Shown one piece after another: positions 47,041 through 47,907 of a DNA stretch of 64,000 nucleotides. A program made the position numbers and the translations under genes. The DNA is taken from the NCBI RefSeq assembly GCF_002288305.1, contig NZ_CP016779.1, positions 496,001 to 560,000 on the forward strand, read 5' to 3'. The notes beneath the pieces are model-generated. The model made no database searches. It was not told the origin of the DNA and was given only the letters and a program-made list of their open reading frames with translations. This DNA is from Candidatus Nanopelagicus abundans (lineage in GTDB: Bacteria > Actinomycetota > Actinomycetes > Nanopelagicales > Nanopelagicaceae). Each line of letters begins with the position of its first letter. The stretch's first letter is position 1.

Positions 47041-47907
47041 ATGTTGCCCCCAAGATTAAGTAGTCGAGCACGGCGCAAGGCTGGGGAAAAAGCTGTATTA
47101 GCTCGCCAAGATCGTGCCAAGGTTAAAGAACAAGTTGCCTCTGGTGAATTATTCTTTTTTGATCTTTTTAAGGACGAGCGTAAATCAATTACACGAATGA
47201 AGTTGGTGGACTTGCTTCAGTCTGTGCCAGGAATTGGTCATGCTCGTGCTCAGATAATTTTTGAAAGAACAAAAATCTCACCATCGCGTAGAATTGGTGG
47301 TGTCGGGCATCGACAGATTGAGCTACTAAGGCAGGAGTTTCTTTTGATTAAAAACTCTCGCAAGAGTGGAAAACTACTAGTTGTTTCTGGGCCCAGTGGA
47401 GTCGGTAAAAGTACGATAACAAACCGATTGCGAGCAGATGAGCGATTTTGGATTTCTGTTTCAGTAACAACTCGATTGATGCGAACTGGTGAAGTGGACG
47501 GTATTGACTATATTTTTGTAGCTGAAGACAAATTTAACCAAATGATTAAAGACAATGATTTTCTTGAATGGGCTGATTTTGCTGGATCTAAATATGGAAC
47601 ACCAAAGAAAGCCGTTGATGAGGCATTGCAAGATGGCAAAAATGTGATTTTAGAGATTGAATTAAACGGCGCAAGACAAGTAAGAAAAAATTCCAAGAAT
47701 GCTATTTTGATATTTATTGAGCCTCCTTCTTGGGAGGAGTTAACTGCTCGATTGATTAATAGAGGAACAGAATCAGAGCAATCAACTCAGGCAAGGCTAG
47801 ATAGGGCGAAAGAGGAGCTATCAGCAGCAGCAGAATTTGATTATGTAGTGATAAATCACCAAGTAGAGCAATCGGTCGCTGAACTGGTATCTTTAGCCCT
47901 TCGCTAA
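47041..47907 (+). CDS. gmk: Actinobacterial integration host factor (mIHF) fused to guanylate kinase
   Basis: A continuous 288-residue frame. Residues 1-101 match mIHF: a basic N-terminal helix, MKLVDLLQSVPGIGHARAQ (a helix-hairpin-helix-like DNA contact) and ISPSRRIGGVGHRQ. Residues about 109-288 form guanylate kinase, with Walker A SGPSGVGKST (116-125), SVTTR and DYIFV, and a lid region. In most Actinobacteria these are two adjacent genes. Here no stop separates them. However, an in-frame TTG (codon 102, 47344) is preceded by AGGAG at 47333-47337 with 6-nt spacing, so a free kinase could also be made by internal initiation. The kinase phosphorylates GMP; mIHF compacts DNA. Whether the main product is fused is unknown. 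Confidence 0.88.
   Translation: MLPPRLSSRARRKAGEKAVLARQDRAKVKEQVASGELFFFDLFKDERKSITRMKLVDLLQSVPGIGHARAQIIFERTKISPSRRIGGVGHRQIELLRQEFLLIKNSRKSGKLLVVSGPSGVGKSTITNRLRADERFWISVSVTTRLMRTGEVDGIDYIFVAEDKFNQMIKDNDFLEWADFAGSKYGTPKKAVDEALQDGKNVILEIELNGARQVRKNSKNAILIFIEPPSWEELTARLINRGTESEQSTQARLDRAKEELSAAAEFDYVVINHQVEQSVAELVSLALR
47333..47346 (+). promoter_or_regulatory. Possible internal ribosome binding site and TTG start for Gmk
   Basis: AGGAG (47333-47337) is 6 nt upstream of an in-frame TTG (47344-47346). Initiation there would yield a 187-residue guanylate kinase of normal family length. It sits exactly at the boundary between the mIHF and kinase parts. Confidence 0.45.

Follow-up and report, generated by a model that had tools for sequence, protein, structure and literature searches.

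Candidatus Nanopelagicus abundans encodes the nucleoid protein mIHF and guanylate kinase (Gmk) in a single gene, located in the window that was analysed (64,000 bp of contig NZ_CP016779.1). Based on codon-level comparison with related genomes, this gene probably (a likelihood of roughly three in four, 0.77) specifies two products, the mIHF-Gmk fusion and a free Gmk that would be initiated at an internal start codon.

The fused reading frame and its domains

The locus displays the following features:

47041..47907, + strand: fused mIHF-Gmk open reading frame, 288 codons plus stop, uninterrupted
47041..47340, + strand: mIHF domain with an H2TH-type predicted DNA-binding fold, codons 1-100, matched by NF041260
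47353..47370, + strand: interdomain linker, codons 105-110, a low-confidence stretch of the AlphaFold model
47368..47895, + strand: guanylate kinase domain, codons 110-285, matched by TIGR03263

The NCBIfam model actino_IHF (NF041260) matches residues 4-100 with 83.8 bits (cut-off 60) over positions 3-101 of its 102, and the equivalog model guanyl_kin (TIGR03263) matches residues 110-285 with 231.9 bits (cut-off 160). The Pfam models H2TH_5 and Guanylate_kin agree with this assignment, and each has a single match in the 1.16 Mb one-contig genome, in both cases inside the fused frame. A second gmk or mihF was looked for elsewhere in the genome and none was found; one HU-type protein is also encoded. 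The earlier note, made from the window's letters, had read mIHF and Gmk as one 288-codon frame, and the open frame together with both curated domain models bears this out. The gene order is pyrF-mihF-gmk-rpoZ-coaBC-metK, the names of the neighbours being read from their translations. In Mycobacterium tuberculosis mihF, gmk and rpoZ are also consecutive, and complementation of a mihF deletion required gmk and rpoZ along with mihF (PMC6155035).

Substitution rates show purifying selection on both domains, with dN/dS values of 0.00-0.10 in the six pairs compared (0.00-0.09 for mIHF). Among 32 fused sequences, the mIHF residues R22, R25, G66, R83, G87, G89 and Q92 are invariant and R84 is present in at least 90%, while in the kinase the P-loop G117-S124, the S139-R148 motif, Y157, E176 and Y185-T187 are largely invariant. 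The mIHF part matches PDB entries 4itq (sIHF) and 6tob (mIHF) by sequence, and the best PDB fold match of the kinase part is M. tuberculosis Gmk (1z8f, TM-score 0.88 on the target). Both folds are visible in the AlphaFold model of the fusion, which has a mean pLDDT of 89.4 and a pTM of 0.61, a combination of high pLDDT and low pTM that would be expected of two domains lacking a fixed orientation. The last mIHF helix spans residues 90-104, the block 101-110 has a mean pLDDT of 62, and the first Gmk strand begins at residue 112; the residues of the linker differ freely among species. The Gmk part is presumably active on GMP, since it is the only Gmk found in the genome.

With the actinobacterial IHF proteins (mIHF Rv1388 and sIHF SCO1480) the mIHF part shares a full-length domain, the H2TH fold with its conserved Arg pair (R83-R84) and G-x-G, and an operon position ahead of gmk and rpoZ. 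Unlike these proteins, it is missing its own stop codon and carries a C-terminal guanylate kinase, and the number of its chains can at most equal that of Gmk. The kinase part, like bacterial guanylate kinases such as M. tuberculosis Rv1389, has a complete domain with the P-loop and the conserved catalytic residues; it differs from Rv1389 in being fused to an N-terminal nucleoid protein and in that a free form would arise only via the putative internal initiation.

Distribution of the fusion

All 21 loci that were read from the same genus (g1) are fused in frame; four further members without a match are genomes that are 62-71% complete. Across the family, 114 fused loci were read from eleven genera (g1, g18-g20, g25-g29, g32 and g33), and six genera (g21, g22, g23, g24, g30 and g31) possess mIHF and Gmk as separate genes. 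The earlier note had named two findings that would dissolve the fusion, namely close relatives that all have two genes and a stop codon hidden by a sequencing error. The close relatives are all fused. A sequencing or assembly error could be imagined insofar as some members of a sister lineage (g24, with TAG-ATG at the junction) are a single stop codon away from the fused state, yet no stop is seen in the 21 loci of g1 or in the many other independent assemblies that are fused, complete genomes among them, and we reject this explanation as having a practically negligible probability.

In a tree built from pyrD, pyrF, mihF, gmk, rpoZ, coaBC, metK and priA, split genera form the base of the family. 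Above them lie a fused clade (g27, g28, g32 and g33), a mixed clade in which g24 and g31 are split and g29 is fused, and a further fused clade that holds the window's genus. By parsimony (a hand count on the tree), a single fusion followed by later splits within the family requires the same number of steps as several fusions. In some members of g24 (L042, L043, L089 and L090) the gmk ATG comes immediately after the mihF stop TAG and shares its frame; either a single base change separates these genes from fusion, or they have come apart only recently. In the g29 fusions (L045 and L048) the linker is 24-29 residues long, and an ATG or GTG stands at the corresponding position but lacks a clear Shine-Dalgarno sequence.

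In the rest of the class, most genomes keep mIHF and Gmk as two genes. Fusions were also found in two MAGs labelled Candidatus Nanopelagicales and placed outside the window's family in the tree (L174:9001-9873 and L195:9001-9840), and in five high-GC genomes of one other family (f33; L322-L326), whose linker holds no plausible start codon. Each of these five genomes has a single match to the fusion profile, and no second gmk was seen in them. Pure fusions elsewhere in the class are of separate origin; the fusion is thus recurrent, and a fused kinase can serve as the sole Gmk. Our literature search found no paper describing an mIHF-Gmk fusion. The fusion is not unique, being widespread in the family and recurring in the class.

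A putative internal start at the domain boundary

The earlier note had also pointed to an in-frame TTG behind an AGGAG at the domain boundary, and had suggested that the locus may produce both a fused and a free kinase. The sequence elements are present with the spacing it gave:

47333..47337, + strand: AGGAG, Shine-Dalgarno sequence of the putative internal start, 6 nt ahead of the TTG
47344..47346, + strand: TTG, putative internal start of a free Gmk of 187 residues, codon 102, conserved at the codon level

The comparative data lend strong support to the second product, as the start switches between codons 102 and 103 and alternates among TTG, GTG and ATG. Ten g1 loci have a codon other than ATG at 103, and in every one of them codon 102 is TTG; the other eleven have ATG at 103, and only one of these also has TTG at 102. 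Over the 78 loci of g1, g18, g19 and g26, codon 102 or 103 is ATG, GTG or TTG in 73. Where codon 103 is not ATG, 53 of the 57 Leu/Val codons at position 102 are TTG or GTG, and where it is ATG, this holds for 1 of 11, i.e. codon 102 is then free (Fisher p 5e-11 for the dependence between the two codons, uncorrected for relatedness). The TTG/GTG share at codon 102 is the highest of 50 Leu/Val columns (the next reaches 58%, and the gene-wide share is about 20%), and Glu99 is encoded by GAG in 92% of cases versus 53% gene-wide, the top value of 19 Glu columns. On a tree of 77 loci, ATG at codon 103 changed at least six times and residue 102 (L, V, M or I) at least nine times, and because of these repeated changes at both codons the pattern is not one inherited accident; despite them, only five tips have no start at either codon. 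These five startless loci all belong to g26, in three lineages, and GGAG is present in one of them versus 21 of the 25 g26 loci with a start. In g18 and g19, a TTG or GTG start is kept in 27 of 27 loci and GGAG is missing in 24 of the 27; initiation in these two genera would rest on a weaker site.

A product starting at codon 102 would have eight residues ahead of Gly110, comparable to the N termini of the free kinases in the split sister genera, where Gmk starts a similarly short distance ahead of the GKL(I/L)V strand.

Pairing energies were computed against the 16S 3' end found in this genome (GGATCACCTCCTTTCT), and background rates were taken from the window itself (64 kb) and from the loci that had been retrieved. 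At the window locus, the duplex of the internal site reaches -8.3 kcal/mol versus -5.6 kcal/mol for the annotated start, and throughout g1 the internal Shine-Dalgarno sequence is the stronger one (21 of 21 loci, mean -9.5 versus -2.1 kcal/mol). Of the 538 in-frame internal start codons that the window contains, 9 (1.7%) reach a value of -8.3, as do just 7% of its first starts. GGAG lies inside codons 97-99 in 20 of the 21 g1 loci. Shuffling synonymous codons in g1 revealed a moderate excess only (the mean fraction of shuffles with an equally strong site was 0.16), because a purine-rich stretch already follows from the conserved protein motif (Q/E/K)E; since part of the Shine-Dalgarno strength thus comes from the protein sequence, more weight attaches to the codon switch between 102 and 103. 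Together, the in-frame start and its Shine-Dalgarno sequence are conserved beyond the constraint on the protein.

These data bear directly on the explanation that the fusion is the sole product, with the internal start and its Shine-Dalgarno sequence being relics of the separate gmk or by-products of the protein sequence. Most of g28, some of g27 and the five genomes of the other family hold stable fused homologues that lack an internal start, so that the fused kinase is sufficient in them, and the motif (Q/E/K)E-F accounts for part of the purine-rich stretch. A relic would decay, however: with dS exceeding 1 in most pairs, synonymous sites have reached saturation, and TTG or GTG is nonetheless retained at the frequency given above and released once an ATG adjoins. 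We therefore consider this explanation unlikely, though it is the one among the rivals that deserves most weight.

The clade of g27 and g28 and the class-level fusions display no convincing internal start. In the Planktophila-like g27 loci (e.g. L073 and L101) an ATG directly follows Glu-Phe in 20 of 26, and a good Shine-Dalgarno sequence is missing; this ATG may be a relic, a consequence of protein constraint or a Shine-Dalgarno-independent start. An internal start is not claimed for g27, as the Shine-Dalgarno signal is no better than background.

Other nucleotide-level signals

In a sliding scan for synonymous constraint, the internal start ranked below codons 83-84 and the gene's 3' end. 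The first of these regions corresponds to the following element:

47287..47294, + strand: CGTAGAAT, CGT-AGA-AT at mIHF codons 83-85 (containing TAGAAT, -10-like), conserved at the nucleotide level

In g1, codon 83 is CGT in 21 of 21 loci and codon 84 is AGA in 20 of 21, versus an arginine usage of about 15% and 30% for these codons, and CGT AGA is present in nearly all g1 and g18 loci and in many of g26 and g27. The TAGA core is missing from all five startless loci of the clade g1/g18/g19/g26, and the block and the internal start tend to co-occur (p 0.0007, uncorrected for relatedness). TAGAAT has no recognisable -35 element, and a consensus scan found no sigma-70 promoter in the region; as a sequence-based suggestion, the block is a possible internal gmk promoter.

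The presence of this block about 50 nt upstream, and its tendency to be missing where the start is missing, would fit an explanation in which the constraint at codons 102/103 and upstream of them stems not from translation but from some other signal in the DNA or RNA, for instance an operator or promoter within mihF. The pattern is nevertheless that of a start codon (NTG with a free first base, a shift by exactly one codon, a fixed distance to the Shine-Dalgarno sequence), the gene has no Rfam match, and a promoter lying further upstream would be an addition to a gmk start, not a substitute for it, which makes this explanation distinctly improbable.

At the other end of the gene, the last eight codons, GAACTGGTATCTTTAGCCCTTCGC (47881-47904), are nearly invariant at the nucleotide level in g1, and CTGGTATCCTTRGC at the gmk end recurs family-wide, split genera included. 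This block is possibly a promoter of the extended -10 type for rpoZ.

A proposed model for two products and its meaning

In the two-product reading, translation from 47041 would yield the 288-residue mIHF-Gmk fusion, in which a short linker connects the last mIHF helix to the kinase, and initiation at the TTG (47344), directed by AGGAG, would yield the free Gmk of 187 residues with an N terminus of normal length. The arrangement most likely originated by loss of the mIHF stop codon in the tight operon pyrF-mihF-gmk-rpoZ, with the old gmk start being kept, and in the window's genus and its neighbours selection would maintain an internal start, placed at either codon 102 or codon 103. The supply of Gmk would thereby become independent of full-length translation from a poorly matched upstream start, and a safe supply is the simplest reason for the retention of the internal start. 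The production of both proteins, and Gmk dosage as its reason, are inferences from the comparative evidence.

In-frame internal starts that give rise to a shorter protein are a known class of bacterial genes, e.g. infB. The mIHF-Gmk gene has in common with this class a second Shine-Dalgarno sequence and start within a longer frame and a product consisting of the C-terminal domain; it differs in being an apparent fusion of former neighbours, with the internal start at the old gene boundary, and in that the evidence is comparative.

Separate proteins could also be obtained if the fusion were translated and then cut by a protease into mIHF and Gmk. The linker (residues 105-110) is the least certain stretch of the AlphaFold model, and mIHF of relatives is an abundant free protein, belonging to the ten most abundant proteins of M. 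tuberculosis (PMC6155035); a conserved cleavage motif is absent, however, and the linker residues vary between species, so that cleavage seems very improbable. With a fusion and internal initiation, the number of mIHF molecules can never exceed that of Gmk. The fusion itself may act as a tether, serve dosage or represent neutral streamlining. A more specific and rather unlikely proposal is that the full-length product serves to localise the making of GTP, or the control of this process, at the nucleoid, and that the internal start together with an internal promoter at codons 83-85 determines the proportions of fused and free kinase.

The gene, which occurs in a family of bacteria abundant in fresh water, unites an essential nucleotide kinase with a nucleoid protein whose essentiality has been shown in M. 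tuberculosis, and it carries the warning that annotation will miss the free kinase. Since separate lineages have the fusion, some with an internal start and some lacking it, the family forms a natural series of separate genes, fused genes with an internal start and fused genes without one, which allows one to ask how neighbours in an operon fuse while the dose of each product is kept. If the fused form matters functionally, it would link chromosome organisation to the supply of guanine nucleotides.
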